Made by a program: the position numbers and the translations under genes. This document shows, one piece after another, positions 603 through 28,163 of a stretch of 46,033 bases of DNA. Below the pieces are notes generated by a model, which saw only the letters and a program-made list of their open reading frames with translations, did not search any database and had not been told where the DNA came from. Source of the DNA: Candidatus Poribacteria bacterium (lineage in GTDB: Bacteria; Poribacteria; WGA-4E; WGA-3G); assembly GCA_022822275.1 (NCBI GenBank), contig JAJEBZ010000091.1, positions 1-46,033 on the forward strand, in the 5' to 3' direction. How positions within the stretch are numbered: the first letter of the stretch is position 1; each line of letters begins with the position of its first letter.

Positions 603-1436
603 ATGTACTACTTAACACGGCAGATTGCATTTGAAGCGTCTCATTACAATCGGATACCCGAATTGAGCGATGCCGAGAACGTTGCGTTGTTCGGTGCTTC
701 GGCAAATCCGAATAGCCACGGTCATAACTACGTACTTGAGGTGATGGTTAAGGGGGATATAGATACCGATGATGGAATGGTCATCAACTTAACGACATTA
801 GATGCGTTATTAAAGTCTGAAGTTATTGCGAATTACGACCATAAACACCTAAACAGTCAACACCCGATTTTTGCTAAAAACCCGCATTTGCAGCCGACCT
901 GTGAAAATATCACGATTGAAATTTGGCAGCGGATTATTCCGTTTCTGACCGATGGATTACTTCATCGGGTTCGGTTGTCCGAGAGTTCAACAGTATCTGC
1001 TGACTACTATGGGGAAGGACAGATGGTTTATCTCACTAAGGTCTACGAGTTTAGCGCAGCGCACCGCTTACATAGTCATCTGCTCAGTGATGCGGAGAAT
1101 CGTGACATCTTTGGGAAGTGTAATAATCCCGCTGGTCATGGACACAATTATGTGCTTGAAGTCACTGTCAAAGGTGATGTAGATGTAAAAACTGGATTGG
1201 TAGCAGGATTGAACCAAATTGACGAGGTTGTTGAAAAGCAGGTTTTTGAACGTTTTGATTATAAACACCTAAATCTTGATACACCAGAATTTAAGACGCT
1301 TAATCCGACATCTGAAAACTTTGTGAAAGTGCTTTGGGACATATTAGAACCGAATTTGCGACCTGTTGTACTACACCGTTTGCGTTTACGAGAAACACCC
1401 AAAAACCATTTTGATTACTATGGAGAACCCTCATAA
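603..1436 (+). CDS. Tandem-duplicated 6-pyruvoyltetrahydropterin synthase (two PTPS/QueD-family domains)
   Basis: The 277-residue protein is two head-to-tail PTPS domains (about 1-137 and 141-277), each with the family zinc site: H14/H39/H41 in the first half and H154/H179/H181 in the second, both inside an HGHNY motif. PTPS converts dihydroneopterin triphosphate to 6-pyruvoyltetrahydropterin; QueD relatives make 6-carboxytetrahydropterin. The second half keeps the animal-type catalytic Cys (C173 in FGKCNNP) but has D219-Y220 where Asp-His is expected. The first half keeps D79-H80 but has S33 (FGASANP) in place of Cys. The pterin-anchoring Glu (E101, E238) is kept in both. folE starts 3 bp downstream, which supports a pterin role; tetrahydropterin versus queuosine precursor is not settled by sequence alone. 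Confidence 0.88.
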   Translation: MYYLTRQIAFEASHYNRIPELSDAENVALFGASANPNSHGHNYVLEVMVKGDIDTDDGMVINLTTLDALLKSEVIANYDHKHLNSQHPIFAKNPHLQPTCENITIEIWQRIIPFLTDGLLHRVRLSESSTVSADYYGEGQMVYLTKVYEFSAAHRLHSHLLSDAENRDIFGKCNNPAGHGHNYVLEVTVKGDVDVKTGLVAGLNQIDEVVEKQVFERFDYKHLNLDTPEFKTLNPTSENFVKVLWDILEPNLRPVVLHRLRLRETPKNHFDYYGEPS

Positions 1437-1439
1437 TAT

Positions 1440-2048
1440 ATGAAAATTGAACAGAAAACTGAAGCTGATCATAAGCAGAAATTGTCTGATCAGACAGCAG
1501 CTTTGGAAGATCTCTATTCACAGATACTTGATAATTTGGGCGAAGACCCAAACCGTCAAGGTTTAGTGAGAACGCCACTACGTGCTGCTAAGGCGTTATC
1601 TTTTTTGACGAGTGGTTATCATCAGGACATTGATAAGGTATTAAATAGAGCCATCTTTGACGAAGATTTTGATGAGATGGTTATTGTCAAAGATATAGAG
1701 TTTTATAGTCTCTGTGAGCACCACATTTTACCTTTTTGGGGTAAGTGTCATGTCGGTTATCTTCCAGAAAAACGGATTATTGGACTAAGTAAGATCCCTC
1801 GCATTGTTGACATGTTCGCGCGGCGGTTGCAAGTTCAGGAACGTTTAACGCGCGAAATTGCTGAGGCATTGCAAACAGCATTGGACCCGACAGGTGTTGG
1901 GGTTGTAATAGAAGCACAACACATGTGTATGATGGCGCGTGGAGTAGAAAAGCAAGCTTCAAAGATGACAACAAATGCTATGCTTGGCACATTTCGGGAG
2001 GATAGTTCGACGCGTGCTGAGTTTCTGAGATGTATCCAAGTTTCATAA
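1440..2048 (+). CDS. folE: GTP cyclohydrolase I (type IA)
   Basis: Converts GTP to 7,8-dihydroneopterin triphosphate, the first step of folate and tetrahydropterin synthesis; cytosolic, normally a homodecamer. At 202 aa the length is normal. Zinc ligands are visible: C92 in CEHH (92-95) and C163 in the QHMCMMARG segment. Also present are the KCHVGYLP and [12 protein letters not shown] substrate motifs and the C-terminal TRAEFL. It begins 3 bp after the PTPS stop, so the two are almost certainly co-transcribed and translationally coupled. Its product is exactly the PTPS substrate. Confidence 0.95.
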
Positions 2049-2089: not shown

Positions 2090-2845
2090 TTGTATACTAT
2101 GCAAAACATTACCAACAACACACTGCCATATAGTCTTAAAGGGAAAGTCGCCATTATTACTGGAGCATCAAAGGGTATTGGCAAAGCGATTGCGTTTACC
2201 TTAGCTGAGGCAGGAGCGAGAGTCGTTTTAGCTGCACGTACTCGCGATGTTGTTGAAAAGGTCGCAGCGGATATTAGAGAATCAGGTGCAGATGCAACCG
2301 CCATCCCAACTGATGTAACTGATATTGACGCGGTGAAAAACCTAATCAAAAGCACATTGGACTCCTATCAAAATTTGGATATTTTGATAAACAACGCAGG
2401 AAACGGGATATTTGGGAACGTTACCGATTTTGATCCGTCAGATTGGGACAGTGTCATCAATTCTAATTTAAAGGGGGTTTTTCTTTGCACTAAATACGCA
2501 CTGCCACATCTATTGAAACGGGATAGTGGACAAATTATAAATGTGTTGTCTATCGCTGCGAAAGTTGCTTTTCCAGCATCAGGCGCATATTGTGCAGCAA
2601 AAGCAGGTGCGCTTGCTTTAACGAAGGTATTGGCAGCTGAAGTACGAGAGCAGAACGTACGGGTTACTGCGGTCTTACCCGGTTCTGTTGAAACACCTTT
2701 TTGGGATGATATTTCACAACATCCCGACTTTGAAAAAATGCTGAAACCTGAACATGTGGCGAATGTCGTTCTGTCTGTGTGCCAACAACCGTTGGGTATG
2801 GTGACTGAGGAAGTTGTTGTGATGCCGCCTCTTGGAATTTTGTAG
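2090..2845 (+). CDS. Short-chain dehydrogenase/reductase (possible sepiapterin-reductase role)
   Basis: Classical SDR of 251 aa with the Rossmann motif TGASKGIG near residues 24-31, NNAG, and the catalytic triad S154-Y167-K171 (YCAAK) at canonical spacing. The family is NAD(P)H-dependent. The sequence most resembles generic 3-oxoacyl-ACP-reductase-like SDRs, so the substrate cannot be read directly. The gene lies 41 bp after folE in the same orientation; GTP cyclohydrolase I, PTPS and an SDR are the three activities of tetrahydrobiopterin synthesis, so reduction of 6-pyruvoyltetrahydropterin is a reasonable inference. A second in-frame ATG lies three codons in; neither start has a clear Shine-Dalgarno. 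Confidence 0.85.
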   Translation: MYTMQNITNNTLPYSLKGKVAIITGASKGIGKAIAFTLAEAGARVVLAARTRDVVEKVAADIRESGADATAIPTDVTDIDAVKNLIKSTLDSYQNLDILINNAGNGIFGNVTDFDPSDWDSVINSNLKGVFLCTKYALPHLLKRDSGQIINVLSIAAKVAFPASGAYCAAKAGALALTKVLAAEVREQNVRVTAVLPGSVETPFWDDISQHPDFEKMLKPEHVANVVLSVCQQPLGMVTEEVVVMPPLGIL

Positions 2846-10108: not shown

Positions 10109-10711
10109 ATGATATTTGAACATAGACCTATACCTGAAATTGCTGACCAAGATTTGATAATTCTACTCGGTGATCAAGAAGAAAATTTATGGATCGATTT
10201 CAAGCAGATGCAATACCACAGAGACAACACAAACCCCGAAGAGCGTAGGCATGAGATATGTAAGGACGTTACTGCAATGGCTAATGCTGAGGGAGGATAT
10301 ATCGTTATTGGCATGCAGGAAGAAGACAAAATCGCACAAAGTTTTTTTAACATTCCTCATGCAGAAAGAGAAGGAGAAAGTATTTATGATATTTGTCATC
10401 AATATATAGTTCCACGTATTGCAAAATTAGAGGTGATTCCGCGTAACTTGAGATGGCAGGATCAAGAGTACAACCTTATAATCATTCATATTCCCTTTAG
10501 TGAAATTCGCCCCCATGGTTTTGTTTCAAATGGTACACTAAACTTTGTGAAAAGGTATGCAGATGTTACAAAAGAATTCCAGATGGAGGAGTTCATTCCT
10601 GAACTTATAGCACGACACCATTTGTCCTCCATGGATGACTTTAGGGAACAGTTGGACAGAATTGAAAGTCAAATAACAACTATTTTAAGGGAAACTGGAG
10701 GGAGCAAATGA
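10109..10711 (+). CDS. AlbA_2 / Schlafen-like putative DNA-binding protein
   Basis: A 200-aa protein with the AlbA_2 (Schlafen AAA-like) signature: ENLWIDFKQM near the N-terminus, then DVTAMANAEGGYIVIGM, the conserved Ala-Asn-x-x-Gly-Gly turn. This domain occurs in transcription regulators, helicase-associated proteins and defence proteins. Residues about 175-195 look like a coiled coil (DDFREQLDRIESQITTIL). It overlaps the next gene by ATGA, a translationally coupled pair, and the pair sits between iolC and iolD. Function unknown. Confidence 0.75.
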   Translation: MIFEHRPIPEIADQDLIILLGDQEENLWIDFKQMQYHRDNTNPEERRHEICKDVTAMANAEGGYIVIGMQEEDKIAQSFFNIPHAEREGESIYDICHQYIVPRIAKLEVIPRNLRWQDQEYNLIIIHIPFSEIRPHGFVSNGTLNFVKRYADVTKEFQMEEFIPELIARHHLSSMDDFREQLDRIESQITTILRETGGSK

Positions 10712-24600: not shown

Positions 24601-26043
24601 TCAATTTTTGTGTTGAATTATTTTTCTTTCGGTTAGTTTTTGTATCAATTCTGTTTGTGTTCCAGTTCCTTTTATAGAGTTGCATGATGCACAAAGCAGT
24701 TGCAGATTTTCAATGCTGTTTGTGCCGTTTTTGCTGCGGGGTATGATGTGATCAACAGTCAAATTTCTGTAGTGAAATGGATATCCACATCCTTCACATC
24801 TGCCTTGTTGTATGCCAAAGAGTTCGGGTTTATGTGTCTGGTATGTCGGCAGTCGTTTTTGTGTCGCGATTTCTTCTGCGTTATCTGTGCGTTCTGGCGG
24901 TGTGTTGGTAACGGTGACATCTGACATCTGAATTGGCGAAAACAACGCACCTTGTTGACTCGCTTCCTCAAGGCGTATCTTTGTGATAACCTCTGCTGAT
25001 GGTGATATGTCAATGCCTATCCATTGACGCTGTAACTTCTCTGCTGCTACACAAGCCGTAGCACATCCACAAAACGGGTCTAATACTACATCACCTTGAC
25101 TGCTGGACGCTTTGATGATGCGTTCAAGTAGTTTCAAAGGTTTTTGAGTGGGATAGCCTGTTCGTTCCTTTGCCTGTGAATTTATGGCAGGAATGTCTGT
25201 CCAAACATTATTCAGCGTTTTTCCTTTTTGTTCATCTAAGTAACGAATTTGTCTTGGCACATTTCCATGTTTTGTTTGGACAACCCGACCACTTTCAATT
25301 TCCTTTTTCATCCTGTCTTTTTTCCATCGCCATGTGCGTTTTATGCCCATAACCTCATAAGTTAAGTTAGAATCGGGGTTTTGAACTGGTGCTGTAATTG
25401 CGGTAAGTTGATACAATCTGCCTTCTTCGTTTTTGTTACAATACTTCTTTTTTGTTTTCTCATCTAAATTCGCTAAATCATAAGGTTGAGTTACTGCCGC
25501 AGTATCCCAAGTAAATGAATCACTTTTACTATATCTGAAAATAATATCTGTATCATGAGCAAGTCCGCGTGTCAAGTTTCCTTTTCGGGTAATTGTTCGC
25601 TGCCAAGTAATTTCATTCCTGAAATTCTTGACACCAAATAAATCATCCATAACAAGTTTTAAGTAGTGACTTGCTGTTGGATCACAATGCAGGTAAATAG
25701 AACCTGTGGACTTTAATATACGCTGCATTTCAAAAAGTCGGACAGCCATTGCTGTGAGATATATTCTCATCGCTTTACCATGCACAACTTCAGAGGCTCG
25801 TATTATCTGATAGAGTTCGTCATGTTGTGATGCGATTTGTCCATGCCATTCGTTTTTGATATCCTCATCTTTCCATATATCCTTGAATTCTGCTCCTTCT
25901 GCGGGTGATCCGATGGGGGCTTTGTAATTCCGATTAGTATTAAAAGGAGGATCAAGATATATCAAGTCAACAGTTTCGGAATCCATACCTCGCATAATGT
26001 CAAGATTGTCGGCTATGAAAAGTGTGCGATTTGCTACGTTCAT
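24601..26043 (-). CDS. DNA methyltransferase fused to a C-terminal HNH nuclease domain
   Basis: 480 aa. The N-terminal part is an amino-methyltransferase of beta-type order: catalytic motif DPPF at 31-34 (YLDPPFNTNRNY) comes first, a variable target-recognition region follows, and the SAM motif DPFCGCA comes at about 325. DPPF favours N6-adenine methylation. The last roughly 75 residues form a zinc-type HNH domain: CEGCGYPF, TVDHIIPRSKNG, NLQLLCASCN. One polypeptide would then combine modification and possible cleavage, as in single-chain restriction-modification enzymes. It is divergent from the second methyltransferase. Target sequence unknown. Confidence 0.88.
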   Translation of the reverse strand: MNVANRTLFIADNLDIMRGMDSETVDLIYLDPPFNTNRNYKAPIGSPAEGAEFKDIWKDEDIKNEWHGQIASQHDELYQIIRASEVVHGKAMRIYLTAMAVRLFEMQRILKSTGSIYLHCDPTASHYLKLVMDDLFGVKNFRNEITWQRTITRKGNLTRGLAHDTDIIFRYSKSDSFTWDTAAVTQPYDLANLDEKTKKKYCNKNEEGRLYQLTAITAPVQNPDSNLTYEVMGIKRTWRWKKDRMKKEIESGRVVQTKHGNVPRQIRYLDEQKGKTLNNVWTDIPAINSQAKERTGYPTQKPLKLLERIIKASSSQGDVVLDPFCGCATACVAAEKLQRQWIGIDISPSAEVITKIRLEEASQQGALFSPIQMSDVTVTNTPPERTDNAEEIATQKRLPTYQTHKPELFGIQQGRCEGCGYPFHYRNLTVDHIIPRSKNGTNSIENLQLLCASCNSIKGTGTQTELIQKLTERKIIQHKN

Positions 26044-26176
26044 AATGTGATTTTTGGGTTGGAAACATGATGAGATTCATAAGATATGAGTATGAAACTA
26101 AAATTCCATAGTTGCGTATTCAATATTACTATAGTAAAAGTAGTACAACACAAATACCATTTTAATTCAACTTTTT

Positions 26177-26205
26177 TTGATATTTATTTTGTTTTATGGT
26201 ATACT
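26177..26205 (+). promoter_or_regulatory. Probable promoter for the second methyltransferase operon
   Basis: TTGATA (26177-26182), 17-bp spacer, TATACT (26200-26205), about 97 bp before the ATG at 26303, in the AT-rich gap between the divergent methyltransferase genes. Confidence 0.5.
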
Positions 26206-26302
26206 GATTTATATAACAGTGCAACTTAATTAAAACGTGTAAATATTAGTTTCGTTACACTTTTTTTGTATATTTAGTTTGGAAATTCCTAAAGGAGTGT
26301 GT

Positions 26303-27166
26303 ATGACTTTTCTGAAGATAGAACAAGGTGATTGTTTGGTAAAGCTCTCCGAACTTGAACTAGAGTCTGTTCATCTTGTCATTTCAGACCCCCCGTATTT
26401 CCTTGATGGATTAGATGCAGATTGGAAGAAAGGTCTGGAAGATGCCCCAAGAGGGACAGGTGTTATTGGGGGTTTACCGGTAGGTATGAAGTTTGATCCT
26501 AAACAAGGGATCGCTTTACAGGCTTTTATTTCGGAAGTTGCTAATGTTCTAAAACCCTGTATGAAGCCTGGCAGTTTTGCAGTGTTCTTTTCACAACCGC
26601 GTCTTTCGCATAGAATGGCAATCGGACTTGAAGACGCAGGGTTTGAAATACGCGATATATGTGCATGGCATTACACACGACGCGCACAATTCAAAGCGTT
26701 CACAATGGATCATTTTGTGCGTCGTATGGATATATCGGACCAGGAGAAACAGAAACTTATTGAGAAGCTTGGAGGGCGTAGAACGCCACAATTGCGTCCC
26801 CAGTTTGAATCATTGGTTGTGGCACAGAAACCGCGAATAGGAACTTTTATTCACAATTGGACTGTTCATGAAACTGGGTTGATTGATGCTTCAGCAGTGT
26901 TAGATGGGAGTGTCCCGACAACAGTTATGACAGTCGAGAAACCTGTTCGTAGTAAATTCAACGGACATTTGACTGTCAAACCTATAGAACTTATTGAACA
27001 TCTGATTCGATTGTTTTCTATATCAGGTCAGGTGGTCTTAGATCCATTTCTTGGAAGCGGAACAACCGCTGTAGCAGCCAAAAGACTTCACCGGTCTTGT
27101 ATTGGCATTGAAATCAACGCTGATTATATTCAGATTGCTAAACAACGGATAAAGGAGGATGTATGA
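26303..27166 (+). CDS. Site-specific DNA methyltransferase (beta class)
   Basis: The start is set at ATG 26303 behind an AAAGGAG ribosome-binding site; the open frame extends 8 codons upstream from a TTG. The 287-aa product has catalytic SDPPYF near 26-31, a variable middle, LTVKPIELIEHLIRL, and the SAM-binding DPFLGSGTTAVAAK near the C-terminus, i.e. beta-class order. N6-adenine or N4-cytosine is possible. It is not similar to the neighbouring MTase-HNH beyond the shared fold. It overlaps the next gene by ATGA. Confidence 0.88.
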   Translation: MTFLKIEQGDCLVKLSELELESVHLVISDPPYFLDGLDADWKKGLEDAPRGTGVIGGLPVGMKFDPKQGIALQAFISEVANVLKPCMKPGSFAVFFSQPRLSHRMAIGLEDAGFEIRDICAWHYTRRAQFKAFTMDHFVRRMDISDQEKQKLIEKLGGRRTPQLRPQFESLVVAQKPRIGTFIHNWTVHETGLIDASAVLDGSVPTTVMTVEKPVRSKFNGHLTVKPIELIEHLIRLFSISGQVVLDPFLGSGTTAVAAKRLHRSCIGIEINADYIQIAKQRIKEDV

Positions 27167-27536: not shown

Positions 27537-28163
27537 ATGGGAAATAACGATGTTAGTAATTCTAACAACAATCTAAAAATAGGACAATATTTAGAGATTT
27601 ACAAATTGCATTTCAACCACATGAATGAAATGAGTAATAGAAGGGTTAATGTTAACAGATATTATATACTTGCTTTATCTATAATAGTTTTGGCATTGAC
27701 AGCATTGTTTCGTAGTGGTGATTTTTTAAGCGCAATATTTACAGGATCAAATGGTCATGATAATTTAAGTAGTAACCTAATTGCACTTTCAATATGTATT
27801 GTGGGCATTTTAGGTGGTATGTTATCAGATTCATGGACAAAAAATGTGTTAGGCTATTTAGAAACTAATTCTCATAGATATGAAGTTATTAAGCACATGG
27901 AATGTAATCTGGAATATTCTTTCATTAATAAGGCTTACGCAAGAATATCTGATAGAGATGAAGGAGCAGAATATTTTTCATTAGCATTACATGAGTTGTA
28001 TGCACCTTTGATATTCCAATTAGGATTTACGGTGTTGTTATTTTTAGGTGTTTTTCAGATGATAACGCTTGAAAGTAAGTATACGATACCTATTTCATTT
28101 ATGGTATTTCTAATTTTTGTATATTTTATTGTCGTATTTTTAGAACTAAGATCGAGGAGGTAA
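27537..28163 (+). CDS. Four-helix membrane protein, RipA/SLATT-like
   Basis: 208 aa. A cytosolic helical start (YLEIYKLHFNHMNEMSNRRVNVNRYY) leads directly into a transmembrane helix (about 43-60), with further helices near 82-100, 160-178 and 184-203. The pattern of a charged amphipathic helix running into a membrane pair resembles RipA-family octameric and SLATT-type membrane proteins, some of which are effectors in nucleotide-signal defence systems. The match is by eye. Base composition is visibly more AT-rich than the flanking signalling genes, and the next gene follows by 2 bp. Confidence 0.6.
   Translation: MGNNDVSNSNNNLKIGQYLEIYKLHFNHMNEMSNRRVNVNRYYILALSIIVLALTALFRSGDFLSAIFTGSNGHDNLSSNLIALSICIVGILGGMLSDSWTKNVLGYLETNSHRYEVIKHMECNLEYSFINKAYARISDRDEGAEYFSLALHELYAPLIFQLGFTVLLFLGVFQMITLESKYTIPISFMVFLIFVYFIVVFLELRSRR

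Follow-up and report, generated by a model that had tools for sequence, protein, structure and literature searches.

The window, that is, the whole stretch of 46,033 nucleotides that was analyzed, belongs to a 4.5 Mb assembly of a Candidatus Poribacteria MAG (96% complete). A tandem PTPS gene lies near its start and is followed by folE and an SDR oxidoreductase gene; the features of this locus were as follows:

603-1436, + strand: tandem PTPS open reading frame, 277 aa, two PF01242 domains
603..1013, + strand: N-terminal PTPS domain, residues 1-137, with H14/H39/H41, S33, D79-H80, E101 and E127
699-701, + strand: codon of S33 (TCG, read from the DNA), at the rat Cys42 position
837..842, + strand: codons of D79-H80 (rat Asp88-His89), with H80 encoded by CAT at 840-842
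1014..1022, + strand: short linker joining the last N-half strand to the first C-half strand
1023..1433, + strand: C-terminal PTPS domain, residues 141-277, with H154/H179/H181, C173, E238 and E264
1119-1121, + strand: codon of C173 (TGT, read from the DNA)
1257..1262, + strand: codons of D219-Y220 (rat Asp88-His89 position), with Y220 encoded by TAT at 1260-1262
1440..2048, + strand: folE, GTP cyclohydrolase I, starting 3 nt after the stop of the tandem PTPS
2090..2845, + strand: SDR oxidoreductase, candidate sepiapterin reductase, matching PDB 2bd0

Elsewhere in the window, a pair of DNA methylase genes at 24601-27166, one of which encodes an HNH domain, adjoins a stretch of lower G+C content and shifted GC skew; a mobile, restriction-modification-like island is a possible reading of this region. 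At 10109-10711 the window encodes a Schlafen/AlbA_2-domain protein, and at 27537-28163 an 8xMP octameric membrane protein.

PF01242 matched two stretches of the 277-aa protein with a total of 193.6 bits, and the protein passed the TIGR00039 model (147.8 against a cut-off of 125.5). Both halves were aligned to rat PTPS and residue numbers mapped from this alignment. Rat Cys42 corresponded to S33 in the N half and C173 in the C half, rat Asp88 to D79 and D219, and rat His89 to H80 and Y220, so that neither half alone holds a complete Cys-Asp-His set (S-D-H in the N half, C-D-Y in the C half) and the triad is complete only when the two halves are combined. The zinc ligands (rat His23/48/50) were intact in both halves as H14/H39/H41 and H154/H179/H181, and the pterin glutamates were found as E101 and E238 (rat Glu107) and E127 and E264 (rat Glu133). 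An earlier note on this DNA had placed S33 and D79-H80 in the first half and C173 and Y220 in the second; the rat alignment and reading of the codons proved it right, and the same alignment bore out its statement that zinc ligands and pterin Glu are present in both halves.

The C half carries CxxxxxHGH (C173-NNPAG-H179-G-H181), the PTPS-II motif (PMC5041015), and the N half has the same spacing with Ser for Cys. This C-half spacing is not that of the QueD motif, CxxxHGH, and the PTPS-III (folate) motif ExxHGH was found in neither half. The protein shares with PTPS-II enzymes (rat 1b66/1gtq, human 3i2b) the fold, the zinc ligands, the pterin Glu and, in its C half, the motif. Known PTPS-II enzymes are homohexamers of two stacked trimers with six equal sites, and single-domain PTPS-II of Acidobacteriota, Chloroflexota and Planctomycetota have a complete Cys-Asp-His in one domain, whereas the 277-aa protein consists of two fused, diverged halves that each lack part of the triad. 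QueD (PTPS-I) belongs to the same Pfam family, and the 277-aa protein exceeds the NCBIfam QueD cut-off, but it has the CxxxxxHGH motif and adjoins folE and the SDR gene instead of que genes.

The product of GTP cyclohydrolase I, dihydroneopterin triphosphate, is the substrate of PTPS. The SDR protein aligned over nearly its full length with PDB 2bd0, named a sepiapterin reductase, although several ketoreductases scored equally well or better. The PTPS-folE-SDR cluster was kept across Poribacteria, and folE and SDR neighbours were also found in several Bacilli and Chloroflexota; together with the CxxxxxHGH motif, the folE and SDR neighbours point to a tetrahydrobiopterin-type pathway. The organism's own genome was searched for genes of the pathway family by family; this turned up FolB but no aromatic amino acid hydroxylase. 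The genome also encodes QueC (G000:C65, L287:7105-7818) and TGT (G000:C284) and has no stand-alone QueD, the tandem protein being its only PTPS-family member; queC lies on another contig and the tandem PTPS gene is not clustered with que genes. As the sole PTPS-family protein of a genome with QueC and TGT, the tandem PTPS may also feed queuosine synthesis.

A match to the 277-aa protein was found in 54 of 60 relatives and in 78 of the 85 genomes of the phylum, with identities of 77-96% within the genus. In all 52 Poribacteria tandems aligned (genus, family, order and class) D79-H80 was invariant, even in class-level relatives at about 43-50% identity, and the C-half Cys and zinc ligands were likewise invariant. 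The N-half Cys position was never Cys (n=52); it was mostly Ala, with Ser in the 277-aa protein and two others. Y220 was retained in genus g1 and in the greater part of family f1, the C-half His was kept in genus g3 and, with few exceptions (Phe once), in families f2-f4, and in the class-level family f5 the His position was occupied by Tyr or Phe, the Asp also being lost in two members. Of the pairing of S33 with Y220 in which the earlier note had been interested, the N-half loss of Cys is therefore general in these tandems, but the Ser itself is not and Y220 is not universal. Since full C-D-H sets occur in the C halves of sister families and of genus g3, the C-half His loss is secondary; in Poribacteria the N-half Cys loss is old and the C-half His loss later, lineage-specific and recurrent. 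Two irregular copies were also seen in the phylum, a degenerate second tandem copy in which the N-half zinc ligands are lost (L055 in genome G019; 3203, - strand, 250 aa), and a locus (L051 in G046) with the N and C halves in two overlapping frames, which represents a frameshift, an assembly error or a gene fission.

Tandem homologues were sought in 84,980 species genomes and turned up in Bacillota, Armatimonadota, Chloroflexota, Planctomycetota, Gemmatimonadota, Latescibacterota, Nitrospirota and one cyanobacterium; in Acidobacteriota and some other groups the halves were separate adjacent genes in the same N-then-C order. The linker in most fused relatives was 8-9 residues, counted between chosen reference positions. 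In a domain tree, fused and separate N halves grouped together beside single-domain PTPS-II including the rat enzyme, and the C halves fell outside this group, the alignment being short and many forks weak. Single-domain PTPS-II of Acidobacteriota, Chloroflexota and Planctomycetota branched beside the N-half lineage (SH-aLRT 96). As judged from these trees and gene arrangements, the N and C halves are two old paralogue lineages, carried as fused or adjacent genes in many phyla, and a split triad is not peculiar to this one protein. A chloroflexotal locus (L192) encodes a triple PTPS fusion in a 495-aa open reading frame (domains at 86-214, 220-344 and 359-485), in which the first domain has lost the zinc ligands and Cys and kept Asp-His, and the third has kept Cys and the zinc ligands and lost Asp-His; a single chain could here form an entire three-domain ring.

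The distribution of catalytic residues was tabulated for 168 distinct N/C pairs (133 fused, 35 as separate genes). Cys was lost from the N half in 106 pairs and from the C half in none, a strong asymmetry; one genome-scan motif includes the C-half Cys and so biases that subset, and in the pairs found without the motif-based scan this Cys was kept in 103/103. Asp-His was lost from the N half in 38 pairs, from the C half in 66 and from both halves in none, and in 66/66 of the C-half losses the N half keeps Asp-His and the C half keeps Cys. Every one of the 168 pairs has the C-half Cys together with Asp-His in one half or both. Among 116 tandems the C-half Cys was present in all and the zinc ligands there were also invariant, with N-half zinc ligands in 109-112 and the N-half Glu in 113; N-half zinc ligands were lost in some members (L029, L079, L096). 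At the positions of rat D88/H89, the N half had an entropy of 0.00 and the C half one of 1.86 among pairs that had lost the C-half Asp-His, against 1.74 and 0.00, respectively, among those that had lost the N-half Asp-His; the grouping does not by itself produce the zero in the half that keeps Asp-His. A set of 90 representatives had both Asp-His pairs kept in 40, the N-half pair lost in 34, the C-half pair lost in 16 and both lost in 0. Single-domain relatives had a full Cys-Asp-His in 49/54, so that loss is associated with the presence of a partner domain, and separate-gene pairs (L099, L100, L104) also showed one-sided losses. Replacements of the C-half Asp-His were diverse (DY, DF, HL, DG, GF, NL, QG, SG), and the N-half Cys position was taken by unrelated residues (A, S, T, W, Y, E, K and others).

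Parsimony on a tree made without the triad columns gave about 4 changes for N-half Asp-His, 9 for C-half Asp-His and 8 for N-half Cys. The C-half losses fall outside the 38% of tree length that lacks the N-half Asp-His (p about 0.03-0.04, a rough test); independent loss events are few and paired sign tests for mutual exclusion underpowered, and mutual exclusion of the Asp-His losses is suggestive. The earlier note had regarded homologues with a full triad in one half as a sign that the changes are sequence-specific decay: such C halves do exist, in the sister families and genus named above, but the His loss recurs (about 9 changes), and sequence-specific decay was rejected on homologue conservation.

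Two classes of fused pairs constrain where a triad could form. In 57 the sole Cys lies in the C half and the sole Asp-His in the N half, which rules out a homotypic-only geometry; in 23 the N half has neither Cys nor Asp-His, which rules out a heterotypic-only geometry for all tandem PTPS. In families f1 and f5, Chloroflexus and others, the sole triad that the sequences allow is heterotypic, joining the C-half Cys to the N-half Asp-His. Where the N half is degenerate, as in Armatimonadota, it must, by the same reading of residues, lie within C halves (C-C pairing), so both kinds of contact must be reachable among tandem PTPS. Heterotypic pairing, as the earlier note had it, fails as a family-wide rule on the Armatimonadota alone, their N half having lost both elements. 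In armatimonad tandems of this type (e.g. L117, L119, L128) the N-half Cys is replaced by Trp and Asp-His by Asp-Gln, with N-half zinc ligands and Glu still conserved, and this half is possibly a non-catalytic or regulatory pterin site; the genes upstream of L117 resemble an ABC transporter and not folE (one neighbourhood read).

In rat PTPS, Asp88-His89 is contributed by the facing trimer. Consistent with this, Glu81 of human PTPS, in the helix just before Asp-His, is located at the trimer-trimer interface (PMC9597361), and the title of Burgisser 1995 speaks of an "intersubunit catalytic triad". AlphaFold single-chain models were examined for the 277-aa protein and one armatimonad tandem. Both had a pTM of 0.90 with the halves side by side; one half matched rat 1gtq at TM 0.96, and the two-domain match of the models to urate oxidase was weak (TM 0.43-0.47). 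Urate oxidase and GTP cyclohydrolase IB likewise have two T-fold domains per chain, side by side in the model, but share about 6-11% identity by structural alignment and have different chemistry. With the halves side by side as modelled, N-C pairs would not fit evenly in a three-place ring, so the "fused hexamer" envisaged at first is probably not formed and we infer a four-domain ring as the simplest closure for neighbouring halves. Both loss classes would be explained if two N-C-N-C rings can stack in either of two ways, with C over N or with C over C.

We consider it probable that the gene encodes a PTPS-II-type synthase with a heterotypic triad of C-half Cys173 and N-half Asp79-His80 in a four-domain ring, a reading built on the observed residues, conservation, complementary losses, paralogue history and gene cluster. 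The protein would be a pterin synthase of two old, diverged paralogous domains, in which the C half gives a complete zinc site and the catalytic Cys173, and Asp79-His80 of the N half would reach that site across an intersubunit contact. A full Cys-Asp-His triad, and presumably enzyme activity, would then be found at C-half sites only, and the N-half sites (S33 with D219-Y220) would lack a triad and have a structural or a metal- or ligand-binding role. In the urate-oxidase-like ring the stacking register would set the partner of the C half, which would be an N half in the 277-aa protein and Chloroflexus and another C half in Armatimonadota. That one heterotypic site is full and the other dead, as the earlier note proposed, agrees with the C-half losses (66/66 keeping the N-half Asp-His and C-half Cys; entropy 0.00 against 1.86), but a purely dead N-half site does not account for the conserved N-half zinc ligands and Glu.

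Pairing between C halves without the His, with Tyr220 or nothing in the place of His89 and the N half as structural partner only, is an unlikely alternative for the 277-aa protein: such contacts must be possible in Armatimonadota, and Y220 is fairly constant inside family f1, but the varied C-half replacements offer no conserved substitute and make Tyr220 unlikely as a functional one, single-domain enzymes keep the full set in 49/54, and the N-half Asp-His is invariant exactly where that of the C half is lost, which a structural partner would not need. It is quite improbable that the protein is bifunctional, the N half catalyzing a different, Cys-independent pterin reaction and the C half acting as PTPS, perhaps with queuosine supply as well. 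The near-constant N-half zinc ligands and Glu would suit this, as would QueC and TGT in a genome with a single PTPS-family protein; yet the N-half Cys position is variable with no new conserved catalytic residue, the zinc ligands are lost in the three members noted above, and the C-half motif is that of PTPS-II and not of QueD (PMC5041015). Simple decay of a protein losing its function, suggested by the absence of catalytic residues from both halves and by the degenerate paralogue L055, is scarcely credible given 77-96% identity within the genus, a match in 54/60 relatives, the invariant C173, C-half zinc ligands and D79-H80, and the conserved gene cluster.

The heterotypic synthase remains the preferred reading, and the pattern across homologues shows a genuine split triad that evolution has maintained, as one outcome within an old and widespread paralogue pair. 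A literature search found, among the papers it covered, none describing tandem or heteromeric PTPS. We advance tentatively, at somewhat less than even confidence, the wider proposal that many phyla carry an undescribed heteromeric PTPS of old paralogous subunits, adjacent or fused, whose catalytic elements were repeatedly divided, and in which two stackings of four-domain rings give N-C or C-C sites. Domain-level PTPS annotation would then hide proteins in which only half of the sites work, and attention would be drawn to the ring geometry of tandem T-fold proteins. If true, the proposal would offer a natural, replicated record of a homomeric shared-site enzyme turning obligately heteromeric, by way of duplication, pairing and the loss of a different catalytic residue from each copy, occurring in separate lineages and with the genes either fused or not.
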